DNA from: Akkermansiaceae bacterium | GTDB taxonomy: Bacteria; Verrucomicrobiota; Verrucomicrobiia; Verrucomicrobiales; Akkermansiaceae | NCBI GenBank assembly: GCA_015062045.1 | Contig: SUVJ01000009.1 | Span: 1-44,981, forward strand | DNA: 44,981 bases | Direction of reading: 5' to 3' | Part shown: one piece after another, positions 22,146 to 28,330 of the stretch | Layout of the letters: the number at the start of each line of letters is the position of its first letter | How positions within the stretch are numbered: the first letter of the stretch is position 1 | Program-made: the position numbers and the translations under genes | Notes under the pieces: model-generated | Told to the model about the DNA's origin: nothing | Seen by the model: the letters and a program-made list of their open reading frames with translations, nothing else | The model's database searches: none

Positions 22146-22739
22146 ATGAGTAACAAAAAAACAAGTGGCACAAATCTTACCGAGGATGACATTATCAGCC
22201 TGCTGGCTGAATTGAGAATGGAACCGCACCCTGAGGCTAATTTTGAAGACAGATTTGTTCACGATTTCAAAGAAAGAGTTGCTACATACGCCGTAACGCG
22301 TCCTGCCCGTAAAGTGCTTTGGGAGCATATTCTGCTGCGTTTAACAGGTATCGGCAAAATGAAATGGGCATGCGGTGCTACCACCTTGGGCGTTGGCGTT
22401 CTGGCTGTGGGGTTTCTCTCTTGGCCTTCTGACGATGCCTCGGAATCACAGCGCGTTGCTCCGGCTATCGGCTCTGCCAGAGTTGTCTCCAAAACGGCCC
22501 CGATAGTTGACCCGAGGGATGTCATTGTGAGCTCTTCTTTGGAGCTGGAGTCTGCTACTTGTATTTTGCCTGCTCAAGTGAATCCGGTGTTCGGGACTAA
22601 TCCTTCATATTCCTCTTTCGAGAACAATACCCATGTTTTTGATTCTGCGATAAATCCTCGCACCCTCCGAACAGTGCCTCAACAAATAACGCTTCCTGTC
22701 ATTGACTCCGGCGCTACGGTGGTGCCGTCAATGTTCTGA
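22146..22739 (+). CDS. Single-TM hypothetical protein
   Basis: One central hydrophobic segment (ATTLGVGVLAVGFLSW); no recognised catalytic motif. Confidence 0.65.
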   Translation: MSNKKTSGTNLTEDDIISLLAELRMEPHPEANFEDRFVHDFKERVATYAVTRPARKVLWEHILLRLTGIGKMKWACGATTLGVGVLAVGFLSWPSDDASESQRVAPAIGSARVVSKTAPIVDPRDVIVSSSLELESATCILPAQVNPVFGTNPSYSSFENNTHVFDSAINPRTLRTVPQQITLPVIDSGATVVPSMF

Positions 22740-22872
22740 GATTTCTTCCTTTTACCATAAAAACGGGCATGGAGCTTTTGCTTTATGCCTTTTTTCGTGA
22801 GCGGATACAGGGGGTATTACATAATTATCCTGAAATAATTATACCAAAAGGTGTAATTCAATGATTCCGTTC

Positions 22873-22903
22873 TTGATTGTGACCGTCATTTGTGCTATAT
22901 AAT
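22873..22903 (+). promoter_or_regulatory. Putative promoter for the 22909 gene (possibly leaderless)
   Basis: TTGATT - 17 nt - TATATA(AT). Confidence 0.4.
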
Positions 22904-22908
22904 TGCAC

Positions 22909-24477
22909 GTGGAAAAGGAATGTACGAGATGTCATAAAATGTTCCGGGCTTCGACGGAAAGCCAGGATGTGTGTCCGGCGTGCTTAAATGATGAATTCGG
23001 CTCCGGGGTGGCAGCAAAAGATTTCGGGAGAGAGGCATTTATTAAAGAGAACAGCGCAGCCATGCGCCGGCAGCAGGCTCGTGCCACCAGGTTAAGCAAG
23101 AATTTTCGTTCTGCCACGGCCTATAATTTGATTGGCATGCTCAGATGCGGGCTTGGCGTTATCCTGTTCATGATTTGTGTGCTGTTGTTCCTGATTTCCG
23201 ATGGGGATCAAATGACATTTCTCAATCAATTAGATTACACCTATCAGCTTTGTATTTCCCTGGGCACGGCTTTAATCTCAAGCCTGTTGTTGCTGCCGTC
23301 TTTTACTCGTCACAAAATTGTTGTGGCCTCTTTTTGGGTGATTATGTTATCCATGGGGGCTACAATGCCCTCCATGTGGCATTTTAAGGTGCCCAATGTC
23401 TCAGACTATGAGCCGGAGACCGCTGAGGAGAAGCCGGGGGATGATGCCGCGTTGACGAGTGGTCGCCACCTTACGGATGCAGATTTGGCGTACTTCAACG
23501 AGCTGAAGGAATCTCGTACCCGCGGGGTGCATTATTCCGTTTTTGTGCGTTGTGATTTAGTTAAAGAGGATGTTGCAGAGGGGATTATTTCATTTGGCAG
23601 AATGGAGCAGCCCACACGCAACCTTATTCGTACCTCTCTCTCTCGCTTGATGAAGGGGGCTAAGGTGGAGATTAATAACAGTGCAGACGGCAGTGGCGTT
23701 ATTTTCACCGTGGTTAATGTGCCGGATGAAAGAAAAAACATAAGCTCTATTCTGAATCGCTACGGGCGTGTATATTACAGTGAACCGGCAGAGGGTATCT
23801 ATGAGCTGTTGCTGGAGCCCGATAAAGTAAAAATCGGGGATGGGTATGATGCTGCTGTTATGTTAGACCCGTTGCACCCGTCTTTTGCAGAGTTGAATAT
23901 GAAAGCCCTGCGCAGTTTGGATGCCGAAATTGTGCGTGCCGCGGCTTCTCGTTTGGCGGAGGCTAACGTGAACCGCCTGCGTAACGATATTGCCGTGCGT
24001 ATCATTGAAGCATTACAGCAGCCTTGGGAGTCTGAGGCGGATACCTATAATGCATTGGCTGAGGCTTTGGTTGTGTATGCGCCGCATGGTATGCCGCAAG
24101 TTGCGGATATACTTTGGCGGTATTTCCAAAATAATATACGAGCCGGGCGCGGTGTTTCTCAACGCGTAGCTGTTCGTTTGGCTCAAGAAGCACCGGATAA
24201 AATGAAAACGCCTGTGCTTAAGTTATGGCAAGCTAACCCCACGGCGTGGAATGAGGTAGCCGGCGTGCTCGTGGAGTTTATGGAGCCTTATATGATTGAA
24301 CAATTGACAAAGAAAAATCTGAGTGTAAAAGATTTGACTCATGTCATGAACTACTTGCAGTCTTATGGTACGAGCAGAGCCCTGCCGGCTCTTCAACCAT
24401 ATGTGGAACACGGCGATAAAGCCATCACCCGTAAAGCCTCTAACACGATAGATTCTATCAAGGGAAGGGGTAAATAA
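22909..24477 (+). CDS. Zinc-ribbon, multi-TM, HEAT-like hypothetical protein
   Basis: CTRCHKMF...CPACL; two to three TM segments; alpha-helical repeat-like C-terminus. GTG start proposed because the zinc ribbon begins before the first ATG. Confidence 0.65.
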   Translation: MEKECTRCHKMFRASTESQDVCPACLNDEFGSGVAAKDFGREAFIKENSAAMRRQQARATRLSKNFRSATAYNLIGMLRCGLGVILFMICVLLFLISDGDQMTFLNQLDYTYQLCISLGTALISSLLLLPSFTRHKIVVASFWVIMLSMGATMPSMWHFKVPNVSDYEPETAEEKPGDDAALTSGRHLTDADLAYFNELKESRTRGVHYSVFVRCDLVKEDVAEGIISFGRMEQPTRNLIRTSLSRLMKGAKVEINNSADGSGVIFTVVNVPDERKNISSILNRYGRVYYSEPAEGIYELLLEPDKVKIGDGYDAAVMLDPLHPSFAELNMKALRSLDAEIVRAAASRLAEANVNRLRNDIAVRIIEALQQPWESEADTYNALAEALVVYAPHGMPQVADILWRYFQNNIRAGRGVSQRVAVRLAQEAPDKMKTPVLKLWQANPTAWNEVAGVLVEFMEPYMIEQLTKKNLSVKDLTHVMNYLQSYGTSRALPALQPYVEHGDKAITRKASNTIDSIKGRGK

Positions 24478-24517
24478 TGATTTGAATAAGTATTAGACTA
24501 ATTTTATTTTACGCACT

Positions 24518-27214
24518 ATGAGCCAGAATCTAGTAAAACTTTTAGTCGGAGTCTTTGCGTCCATGTTGCTCGGCTATTTGCTGCGGCCGTGCTATAATAT
24601 GATACGCCCCGATGCTGTTGCGGTGGATTATGCCCCCACACCCACAGAAACACCCGAGGCTGAGGCCGGACCGTCCGAAATTGATGTTCTGACAGATGCG
24701 GATGAGCATGCCCCGGTTGTTGTGCATACCGGCGAGGTGAGGGAGAATGTATCTGTTGCAGAATTGGATGATGAAGACGGCCTGGGCTCGGACGATGATT
24801 TTGAGGATGCGGACGATGATACCGTGGCAGATGACGATGCCGGGGAGGATTGGACAGTGGCACGAGACAATGATTCTTTTGTGCCGGAGAAAACGCCGCC
24901 GGCAGAGCTTAAACCCATTCGAGAGGCTAATGTTCAGGTGGATCCTAAGGAAGAGGTGGTGCCTGTTGCTTGTAACAAAGCCCGCAACCGTGCCTACAAA
25001 CGCATGGCAGATAACTTGGCGGACAAGTACGTGCGTGCAGAAAAAAAACGTAAGGATGGCGTGGGCTACTCTGATAAAAAGTTTTCTGCCGAACAATGGA
25101 AACGCCCGGATGTCATATACCGGGATTTGCTCACCAAAACCGTGCCGGATCTTGCTCGCCAGAAAAAACTTTGGACTGCCTTGGAATCCCCCGAGCGGCA
25201 GTTAGATTTAGCCCGCCTTACCTTGATTCGTAAGGTTGGTTATGAGGGCTTGTCGAAAGTGGCAGAAACCAAAATGGGGCTCCCCATGTTGGTGGCACTT
25301 ACCTCAGACCTGGATTGGATGCAGGGGTTATTGTACTCCGGCCCTACGGATAAGTTGGGTAAAGCCTTGCTCTACTTGTCTGCCATTTATGAAAGATATG
25401 TAGAGCAAATGGCCTCCCCTCACACCCGCCGTATTGCCACGACCACGGCATTGGAGTTTGCGCGGGAGGGGTGGTCCGAGCAGGAAATGATGGCACGCTT
25501 TGAGTACTACCACAAGAGTTTTGAGGAGGGTAAGCTCAATTATATATTCGGCACCTTAGGGTATTGGGATACCCGTATAGTAACCGGGTGCAAAGAGCCC
25601 GAAGGGTGGGGTAGCGTGCGCTCTCTCACTTGGCAGCGAGACAATGTGCGCTTGCCTGCCGAGGGATACTTGGGTGCGTGCAACCAGTTGGTATATCGTC
25701 TTCGCAATGTGGCCGGCGATTCCGTGTTCTCCGGGGATTATTTGGGGCCCATCCTTAAACATACCAACCATACAACGGCTTGGGCACACCGTGAGATTGG
25801 CGGTGTGTGTGGAGCGTGCTCTCACTACGGTGCATACGGTGCATTGGCTGCCGGTATACCTGCCATGACCATGGGCGAGCCCGGTCACTGCGCATACACC
25901 GTACGCATCGGTAATGATTGGCAAAAGAGCTATTCGATTTATTGGCAGCACTCCATGCACAAGACGTTTTTCGGCTTGTATGATTGGGATTTCTTGATTT
26001 TGACGCAGGATTTTTATTCGGACAAGCATCACCAACTCATTTCAGACCAATTATTGGCCGCAGCAGAGTTGTTGGCTTCCCGTAAAATGATGAAATCTGC
26101 CTTCAACTGCTATGATGCAGCATTAGTGGCTCATCCCCTCAATTGGCAGGCATACCGCTCATACGCCGGGTATCTTAAGCAGAAAGCCGCAGACAACAAA
26201 GAGCGTTGGAAAGAGCTGCATGATAAGGTGGTTGCCAATATGGCCGTTAAGTTTCATAATGCCGCAGCAACCTATTTATGTAACTATGTGTACCCGAACC
26301 TGCTGCCCATGATTCCCGAGAAAAATGTGCGTAACAAAATGTATGCAGCGTTCTTTAAACAATGTGCAACTTTTGGCACAAATCGTTGGGATATAGCCCC
26401 CCTGCTGACGGCCCAGATAGAGGGATGCACCAACACTAAAGAAAAACTTGCCTACATGAAAGAAGCCCTCAAAACATTGATGGGTAAACCGGACTATGCA
26501 GGGGCTGTGCTCACTTGGGGCTTGGATTATATCAGCAAGTTGCCTAAATCCGATAAGGATGCGGCAAAATTGCATAAATCATTCAGTGATATGATTGTAC
26601 GTGCCATGGGACGCGCTAAGGCCAATAAGAAGAGTGCCGACACCACTTGGGCTGCCCTGAGTGAGGCCATTTATGCCGCCGCTACAAATGGGGATAAACT
26701 CACGTTCCAAGCTATCGGTAAGTTGGCTTACCGTAAGTGTCGTAAGAACTTCCCCAAACAAAAGATGCGCTTCCGTTCATTCCCGGGTCGTGTGGTTTCT
26801 GCCAAAGGACTCATTCGTACGGCTACAACCATAGATCCCGGGCAGATGTCTCAGTGCTGTATGCATTGGGCGGTATTACAGAAACATGGTGGTAATATCC
26901 CTGCTAAGTTTGAGGGTAGTGCCGGTATGACGGTAGAGCTGGAGTCTCCCAGCCTGCTTAATGGTGTTGTTTGTGTGTTTAATGAAAACGTAAAAAATGA
27001 CCGCGACTTTAAACTGGAGATTTCTTCTGATGGTCAGAACTGGGAATCTACGGATGCCGTGCCGGTTGTAGCCGGTAACATGGTGCGTGTAGATGTGCGT
27101 AAAGAAAAATTAACAACCGGATTTGTTCGCCTTTTGAGGGATGGAGACAAGTGGGAGTCTACCGTTATCGGCTTTTATGTATACGGTCGACCTGCAAGAG
27201 GTGCTAAAAAATAA
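24518..27214 (+). CDS. Membrane-anchored transglutaminase-like protein with acidic linker and possible C-terminal discoidin-like domain
   Basis: N-terminal TM; Asp/Glu-rich linker; Cys/His/Asp-like triad in GGVCGACSHYGAYGALAAGIPA - GHCAYTVRIG - NDWQKSY; C-term SPSLLNGVVCVFNENVKNDRDFKLEISSDGQNWE. Confidence 0.7.
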   Translation: MSQNLVKLLVGVFASMLLGYLLRPCYNMIRPDAVAVDYAPTPTETPEAEAGPSEIDVLTDADEHAPVVVHTGEVRENVSVAELDDEDGLGSDDDFEDADDDTVADDDAGEDWTVARDNDSFVPEKTPPAELKPIREANVQVDPKEEVVPVACNKARNRAYKRMADNLADKYVRAEKKRKDGVGYSDKKFSAEQWKRPDVIYRDLLTKTVPDLARQKKLWTALESPERQLDLARLTLIRKVGYEGLSKVAETKMGLPMLVALTSDLDWMQGLLYSGPTDKLGKALLYLSAIYERYVEQMASPHTRRIATTTALEFAREGWSEQEMMARFEYYHKSFEEGKLNYIFGTLGYWDTRIVTGCKEPEGWGSVRSLTWQRDNVRLPAEGYLGACNQLVYRLRNVAGDSVFSGDYLGPILKHTNHTTAWAHREIGGVCGACSHYGAYGALAAGIPAMTMGEPGHCAYTVRIGNDWQKSYSIYWQHSMHKTFFGLYDWDFLILTQDFYSDKHHQLISDQLLAAAELLASRKMMKSAFNCYDAALVAHPLNWQAYRSYAGYLKQKAADNKERWKELHDKVVANMAVKFHNAAATYLCNYVYPNLLPMIPEKNVRNKMYAAFFKQCATFGTNRWDIAPLLTAQIEGCTNTKEKLAYMKEALKTLMGKPDYAGAVLTWGLDYISKLPKSDKDAAKLHKSFSDMIVRAMGRAKANKKSADTTWAALSEAIYAAATNGDKLTFQAIGKLAYRKCRKNFPKQKMRFRSFPGRVVSAKGLIRTATTIDPGQMSQCCMHWAVLQKHGGNIPAKFEGSAGMTVELESPSLLNGVVCVFNENVKNDRDFKLEISSDGQNWESTDAVPVVAGNMVRVDVRKEKLTTGFVRLLRDGDKWESTVIGFYVYGRPARGAKK

Positions 27215-27229
27215 AACATACAACATGTT

Positions 27230-28249
27230 ATGAAATATCTTTTCCTTTTATTAAGTGTATTCACAGCCGTGTTGCCGGCATATGCAGCAACGGCTCGTTC
27301 TTTTGATGATGCTTTGCGTAAAGCCGGGGGGCGTAAGCCTATTGTGCTTTTTTGCTATGGGGCCAATTATGATAAGGTAAGTGAGGCGGCGTATGAAACC
27401 TTTATCCGTAAACGCGGTATCGCCAATGCGGTGCGCTTCTCCGTCTTCTTGGAGGTTCCCGTCTATCAAATGCCCAACGAAAAAGAAAAAAAGGAGTGGC
27501 AGAAGGTAATGGGTAAGCATTCTTTACCGGGGGGGATATGGAGTTATCCCTGTTTAGCCGTGCTTGACGGCTCCGGCTCATTACGTGGTGTTGTGCAAAG
27601 TGCAGAGGAAATGAAAAACCCTGAGACCGCAGCTGCTGCGCTGGAAAAATTATTGGTGGCGTTCGATGCTCAGGAGGATTTACTTAAGAAAGCCGTCAGA
27701 ACGTCCGGCAGCAAGCGTTTGTCGTTGTTATCTCAAGCTGCTGATGAGCAGGCAATTTTGCCGGGGTCTGTAAGTGGGGGTACACCATTTGACCCCATTA
27801 CCGTTGTAGAGGCCTTGCAGCCGATGACGCATGAAGAGGCCAACAACTATGTGCGCCAGCTCATTGCCTCCGGTTATTACAGCCGCCGCCAGCGTCAGGA
27901 GATTATGGCTGCTTATGCGGGGCATATTCGCCGCAATGGCGGCTCCGCCAACCGTTTGCGTGCTATTTATACCGAGATGCGCAACATTGACCCCACCTCT
28001 ATATACGGTGCCTATGCAGAGGGAGCCATAGAGCTTTGGGTAGTGCCCAAAGAGGAGGACCCCTCCCTTGATAAACCCTATAAAACCCTGGCGCAGCGTC
28101 AAGCTGAGGAAAAAGCTAAAAAAGAAAGCGGCGGCAGTACGCCTACCGGTTCAAGCGATGATGAAGGGTGGACCCCCATGGGCAGCAGCAAAAAGCCCGG
28201 TGCCGACACCAAACAGACCGATGGCCCTATGGGCAGTACAAAAAAATAA
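27230..28249 (+). CDS. Secreted hypothetical protein
   Basis: Signal peptide MKYLFLLLSVFTAVLPAYA; low-complexity Gly/Ser/Lys tail with MGSSKK/MGSTKK. Confidence 0.65.
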   Translation: MKYLFLLLSVFTAVLPAYAATARSFDDALRKAGGRKPIVLFCYGANYDKVSEAAYETFIRKRGIANAVRFSVFLEVPVYQMPNEKEKKEWQKVMGKHSLPGGIWSYPCLAVLDGSGSLRGVVQSAEEMKNPETAAAALEKLLVAFDAQEDLLKKAVRTSGSKRLSLLSQAADEQAILPGSVSGGTPFDPITVVEALQPMTHEEANNYVRQLIASGYYSRRQRQEIMAAYAGHIRRNGGSANRLRAIYTEMRNIDPTSIYGAYAEGAIELWVVPKEEDPSLDKPYKTLAQRQAEEKAKKESGGSTPTGSSDDEGWTPMGSSKKPGADTKQTDGPMGSTKK

Positions 28250-28297: not shown

Positions 28298-28330
28298 GGG
28301 GGCAACAGGCTAAACTGTTGCTCCCTTTTT
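28298..28330 (+). terminator. Intrinsic terminator/attenuator upstream of cstA
   Basis: GGGGGCAACAG-GCTAAA-CTGTTGCTCCC followed by TTTTT. Confidence 0.75.

Follow-up and report, generated by a model that had tools for sequence, protein, structure and literature searches.

Enzymes of the transglutaminase-like superfamily (PF01841) share a papain-like fold and a Cys-His-Asp active site. One of them, the eukaryotic peptide:N-glycanase, is a transglutaminase-fold amidase that acts on glycoproteins and is found with carbohydrate-recognition domains; its cysteine motif may resemble that of the protein termed P3 below. The other described proteins with which our locus can be compared are the thioredoxin-fold proteins DsbH, DsbD-C and Thioredoxin_7, and the F5/8 type C or CBM32 beta-sandwich domains. 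The locus lies in a metagenome-assembled genome (MAG) of Akkermansia, a major mucus-dwelling gut genus; this assembly comprises 2.37 Mb in 126 contigs, and the stretch of 44,981 nucleotides that we analysed is referred to here as the window.

A first-pass annotation of the window had described 4 open reading frames of the same strand, the last 2 of them separated by 15 nt and followed by a terminator-like hairpin, as one candidate envelope system. We found the reading frames (P1 to P4, in that order, of 197, 524, 898 and 339 aa, respectively), the spacing and the hairpin to be as described, and the same holds for the features that had been assigned to the 4 proteins. The positions of these and other features are as follows, with the evidence for each in brackets.

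22146-22739, + strand: P1, a one-TM protein and putative anti-sigma factor, last gene of the hemA unit (neighbourhood, terminator)
22765-22790, + strand: terminator-like hairpin and T-run between P1 and P2 (11 pairs, -20.7 kcal/mol, z -6.1, followed by TTTTT)
22903-24477, + strand: P2, with a zinc ribbon, three hydrophobic segments and HEAT-like repeats (motif, hydropathy, profile matches)
24518-27214, + strand: P3, a predicted membrane-anchored protein (reading frame, AlphaFold, profiles)
25787-25957, + strand: putative transglutaminase-like core of P3, residues 424-480 (conservation, profile alignment)
25808-25810, 25886-25888, 25889-25891 and 25919-25921, + strand: P3 codons for Cys431, His457, Cys458 and Trp468, respectively
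26786-27214, + strand: C-terminal F5/8-type C or CBM32-like domain of P3, about residues 757-898 (Pfam, Foldseek)
27230-28249, + strand: P4, with a signal peptide, a predicted thioredoxin-like fold, a helical domain and a disordered C-terminal tail (reading frame, AlphaFold, Foldseek, profile)
27359-27382, + strand: degenerate thioredoxin active-site segment of P4, GANYDKVS, residues 44-51 (alignment)
28298-28325, + strand: terminator-like hairpin and T-run after P4 (-21.5 kcal/mol, z -6.0)

By sequence inspection, the genes to the 5' side of P1 were named as a polysaccharide deacetylase-like gene, a fused uroporphyrinogen methyltransferase/synthase-like gene and hemA, and those to the 3' side of P4 as a CstA-like transporter followed by a penicillin-binding protein. 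We searched each of the 4 proteins against 97 relatives and then read the gene order in the loci obtained; these genomes are mostly MAGs, and the start codons at several loci represent a longest-ORF choice. Because homologues of each protein occur in many genomes, none of the 4 is a chance reading frame. None of the 4 window proteins gave a Pfam or NCBIfam match above cut-off, and no model in either collection names the core that P3 and P4 form.

In the aggregate, our observations showed that P3 and P4 belong together, and that the pair is duplicated and in some lineages fused as a unit. P4 lies immediately 3' of P3 on the same strand in 86 of 97 distinct P3 loci, with gaps mostly between -3 and 44 nt. 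The other 11 consist of 2 loci flagged as contig ends, 2 on contigs that stop soon after P3 (L136 and L174), one with a P4 that ORF calling had missed (L171), one half of a split P3 gene (L080), one fusion (L086), three distant relatives (L083, L088 and L089), and L124 of genome G040, which is the sole genuine separation of P3 from P4 among the 97. At that locus a different sequence stands downstream of the P3 orthologue, and P4 is on another contig (G040:C42).

The window genome itself has 5 copies of P3, on contigs C85, C87, C105, C106 and C119, of which 4 adjoin a P4 and the other one reaches the end of its contig. The paralogous P3 on C119 (L080:6670-9158) consists of 2 overlapping reading frames ahead of an intact P4, which may reflect a frameshift, a pseudogene or an assembly error. 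The occurrence of many such paralogous pairs indicates that duplication copies the cassette as a whole. When the distance matrices of P3 and P4 were compared for 96 pairs, we obtained a correlation of r = 0.96, to which shared species history contributes, and a maximum of 0.14 in 500 permutations; in 86 of the 96 pairs the nearest relative of P4 was the partner of one of the three closest relatives of P3.

The closest public match to P3 is from an Akkermansia sp. MAG of goat cecum (95% identity), and the pair was also seen in A. glycaniphila, an Opitutia MAG, Akkermansiaceae UBA956, Planctomycetota/Phycisphaerae MAGs and other families of Verrucomicrobiota. With a P3 profile, 124 of 388 Verrucomicrobiota genomes drawn gave matches at E <= 0.001; at most this number would carry the full family, since many of the weaker matches are confined to the F5/8C end or to a short segment of the protein. 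We read 40 further loci, and found P4 and P3 side by side in 12 of them and joined into a single polypeptide, P4 first, in 17; with L086, whose N-terminal part matches Thioredoxin_7, there are 18 fused loci, all from Verrucomicrobiota. That the 2 are fused in several families is our strongest indication that P3 and P4 act together. Through the fusions, hypothetical genes that were only loosely clustered become a defined protein of 2 subunits, in which one residue is predicted to be catalytic, so that function becomes directly testable.

Some loci departed from this pattern in other ways. Three of them, from one genus of the same family (L269, L270 and L273), have a conserved gene of about 765 aa upstream of P3-P4, with F5/8C, PDZ and DUF6288 domains in the 2 copies scanned; its product is a possible additional partner. 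Distant P3-like proteins that have no P4 partner were seen at L088, L089 and L283-L289, and in L089 the P3-like region is followed by an FGE-sulfatase domain.

From sequence and structure prediction, P3 would consist, in order, of a membrane anchor, an acidic linker, a helical region, the transglutaminase-like core, TPR-like helices and an F5/8C-like beta domain. The hydrophobic anchor is at residues 4-22, and the acidic stretch from residue 29 to 135 is predicted to be disordered. The sequence of the core is GGVCGACSHYGAYGALAAGIPAMTMGEPGHCAYTVRIGNDW. We observed that Cys431, His457, Cys458 and Trp468 are invariant in all 127 P3 homologues aligned, and that the catalytic Cys and His of PF01841 are thus present in order, as Cys431 and His457. 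Position 472, four residues past Trp, is that of the canonical Asp; it is occupied by Tyr (87 sequences), Asn (30), Phe (9) or Ser (1) and is never acidic, and with this residue lost, activity of P3 is not assured.

A profile of the P3 core, aligned by hhalign with 32 transglutaminase domains from related genomes, gave a pairwise E of 8.7e-5 and a probability of 60%, compared with E values of 0.03 to 0.6 for controls (one reversed and 8 column-shuffled). The register of this alignment placed Cys431 on the transglutaminase Cys, and His457 and Trp468 at or beside their counterparts. The AlphaFold model, which is of moderate confidence in this region, has a helix at 431-444 and strands at 449-452, 459-464 and 467-471, an order that fits the transglutaminase fold; both this model and that of P4 were built on alignments of 12 sequences. 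No member of the P3 family that we scanned matched Transglut_core (PF01841) above the Pfam cut-off, and a search of the window genome with this model retrieved three ordinary transglutaminases, P3 not being among them. Likewise, the 50 best Foldseek matches to the whole P3 model contained no transglutaminase; they comprised long helical proteins, for which TM-scores are meaningless, and CBM32 domains. Given the missing Asp and these negative searches, we describe P3 as transglutaminase-like and refrain from assigning it to PF01841. We infer, with moderate support from the profile alignment and the model, that the core probably has a transglutaminase-type fold. The assignment of the C-terminal domain draws on an F5_F8_type_C match that is below the Pfam cut-off for the window copy (E 0.0029) and above it for several relatives, together with a Foldseek TMt of about 0.65 against CBM32 structures.

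P4 was modelled with a pLDDT of 82, reaching about 90 in the thioredoxin-like domain and falling below 50 from residue 305. Residues from about 20 to 156 are predicted to adopt a thioredoxin fold; the nearest solved relatives by Foldseek are DsbD-C and DsbH, and the DsbH entry 2ju5 was also matched by profile (E 2e-4). The active-site segment, however, is altered from the usual GSDWCxxC to GSDW[C/N/S/D]xxG, and reads GANYDKVS in the window. We found CxxC in no paired or fused P4 copy examined; it occurs in 2 of 123 P4-type sequences, neither of them a partner of P3, and one of the 2 was confirmed to be an ordinary Thioredoxin_7 protein. The cis-Pro position has retained its Pro in 90 of 90. 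Loss of CxxC implies that P4 is not an oxidoreductase; judged from its sequence and model, it appears to be a thioredoxin fold that has given up the usual redox chemistry and is retained for structure or binding. The P4 homologue of a Phycisphaerae MAG (L173:6923-8917) has a C-terminal BNR/sialidase-like domain, which points to glycans. At three loci (L268, L278 and L279) a large insertion separates the thioredoxin part of P4 from its helical part.

The explanation that we favour, and to which we would give about even credence, is that P3-P4 works as an exported enzyme of the Cys-His type on substrates that bear glycans or belong to the envelope, with P4 as a dedicated non-redox partner. The 2 proteins would be halves of one exported machine, in which P3 is the enzyme, anchored in the membrane and built along transglutaminase-like (papain-like) lines. 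Its catalytic dyad would consist of Cys431, which opens a helix, and His457, which opens the strand that follows, with Tyr, Asn or Phe in place of the usual Asp. Such an enzyme might cleave or transfer an amide or acyl bond in a substrate gripped by the F5/8C (CBM32-like) domain and the helical repeats, the most plausible substrate being a glycan-bearing protein or polymer of the envelope or the surrounding mucus. P4 could then serve as a structural partner, i.e. a folding factor, scaffold or substrate adaptor, that is made together with P3. Catalysis by P3, a glycan-bearing substrate, and a physical complex of P3 and P4 where the 2 are encoded separately are the parts of this scheme that we infer, and export and domain layout are taken from sequence and prediction. 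A bolder version, which we regard as unlikely, holds that P3-P4 represents an undescribed class of exported Cys-His enzymes of Planctomycetota and Verrucomicrobiota that requires a redox-dead thioredoxin-like subunit, cleaves or transfers amide bonds of glycoproteins (e.g. mucin-type or N-glycosylated) and has expanded to several copies in gut Akkermansia.

The main rival to the enzyme reading is that P3-P4 is a non-catalytic exported complex for binding or adhesion, in which the core would be a pseudoenzyme and function would lie with the glycan-binding and repeat domains. The absence of the canonical Asp from all 127 homologues would be accounted for in this way, as would a P4 thioredoxin that has no active site and the presence in P3 of a CBM32-like domain and a large acidic linker. 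Yet invariance of Cys431, His457, Cys458 and Trp468 in 127 of 127 sequences from very divergent lineages is difficult to account for unless these residues take part in chemistry or have a fixed role in metal binding or disulfide formation, and we consider the pseudoenzyme a serious possibility that is nevertheless less probable than an enzyme.

A further rival assigns to P4 a redox or thiol-protecting role, by which Cys431 or Cys458 of P3 would be maintained in the reduced state in the periplasm. A fold nearest to DsbH/DsbD, invariant Cys residues in P3, and retention of the first motif Cys in some copies of P4 (GSDWCxxG) would all be consistent with such a role. However, many copies of P4, including that in the window, have no Cys at either motif position, and no paired or fused copy has CxxC, so that we think this role improbable. 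An active redox role for P4 is disfavoured for the latter reason.

That P2 joins the pair in Akkermansia as a partner in the inner membrane, to make a system of 3 genes, seems to us about equally improbable. P2 has a zinc ribbon with a conserved CxxC...CxxC pair (C7, C10, C24 and C27) and three hydrophobic peaks; its HEAT-like repeats are indicated by HEAT_2 matches in 7 of 12 family members and by similarity to designed HEAT/alphaRep chains (E 3.7e-19). Among 48 genomes of the genus with a P3 orthologue, P2 immediately precedes P3 in 34, at short gaps (40 nt in the window), and in the window terminators flank P2-P4 on both sides; P2 is possibly co-transcribed there with P3-P4. But P2 is absent from 12 of the 48 and located elsewhere in 2, it is not linked to P3 in A. 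muciniphila-like genomes or A. glycaniphila, and it was found in only one of 20 genera searched, compared with the spread of P3-P4 across phyla. P2 is a lineage-specific neighbour, outside the conserved P3-P4 unit.

P1, which has a single, borderline hydrophobic segment, is also outside the P3-P4 system. The hairpin between P1 and P2, which the first-pass annotation had overlooked, is as strong as that after P4, and a similar signal was present in 3 of 6 close relatives tested; a strong terminator at this position splits the cluster. The adjacency of hemA and P1 is kept where P2-P4 are located elsewhere (L090, L091 and L097). In other lineages P1 is directly 3' of a sigma-70 ECF-type gene, as in G052 (a single-contig A. 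muciniphila-like genome), G015 and G061 (a genome of another family), where the sigma gene was confirmed by Pfam; G096 has the same layout, and in A. glycaniphila P1 lies, by coordinates, just after the sigma orthologue. Although a Pfam scan of the P1 family gave no match to an anti-sigma domain, this neighbourhood suggests that P1 is most likely an anti-sigma factor, and its cognate sigma gene would have moved away: the sigma orthologue of the window genome (57% identity) is on contig C1 (G000:C1:15205-15780). A conserved ECF sigma gene with a P1-family gene as its downstream partner was noted in several Verrucomicrobiota (loci L074, L092, L093 and L096), and in the ruminant/rabbit Akkermansia clade the sigma-P1 pair is separated, with P1 behind hemA. 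A single envelope system of all 4 genes, suggested by their common strand and by their lying side by side both in the window and in close relatives, is highly improbable, being contradicted by the P1/P2 terminator and by gene neighbourhoods in which P1 keeps to hemA or an ECF sigma gene and P2 is genus-restricted and, in many genomes with P3-P4, either lies apart from them or is missing. What survives of the original proposal, that of a papain-fold enzyme with helper proteins at the envelope, is the part that concerns P3 and P4, which co-duplication, pairing across phyla and fusion now support far better than adjacency did; it does not hold for P1 and P2. Similarly, co-occurrence of homologues in other genomes was borne out for 2 genes and not for 4.

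In open-licence PMC papers we found no description of a P3-P4 module or of Akkermansia transglutaminase-like/discoidin proteins, and yet the pair is kept in several copies per Akkermansia genome and in distant Verrucomicrobiota and Planctomycetota. A redox-dead thioredoxin fold as the near-constant partner of a Cys-His enzyme would, if true, be an unusual arrangement.

Compared with the described systems, P3 resembles the transglutaminase-like superfamily in its invariant Cys at the start of a helix, in a GIPA-type segment, and in a His and a Trp that follow in the same order and at roughly the same spacing. It differs in scoring below the Pfam cut-off, in having Tyr, Asn, Phe or Ser at the acid position, in a characteristic GEPGHC motif, in the placement of its core between helical repeats and an F5/8C domain, and in its dedicated thioredoxin-like partner. 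The C-terminal domain of P3 is similar to F5/8 type C and CBM32 domains by profile (in several members) and in its predicted beta-sandwich fold, although the window copy is below cut-off. P4, in turn, shares with DsbH, DsbD-C and Thioredoxin_7 a predicted thioredoxin fold and the Pro of the cis-Pro position, and departs from them in the lack of CxxC in its paired and fused members and in an extra C-terminal helical domain.
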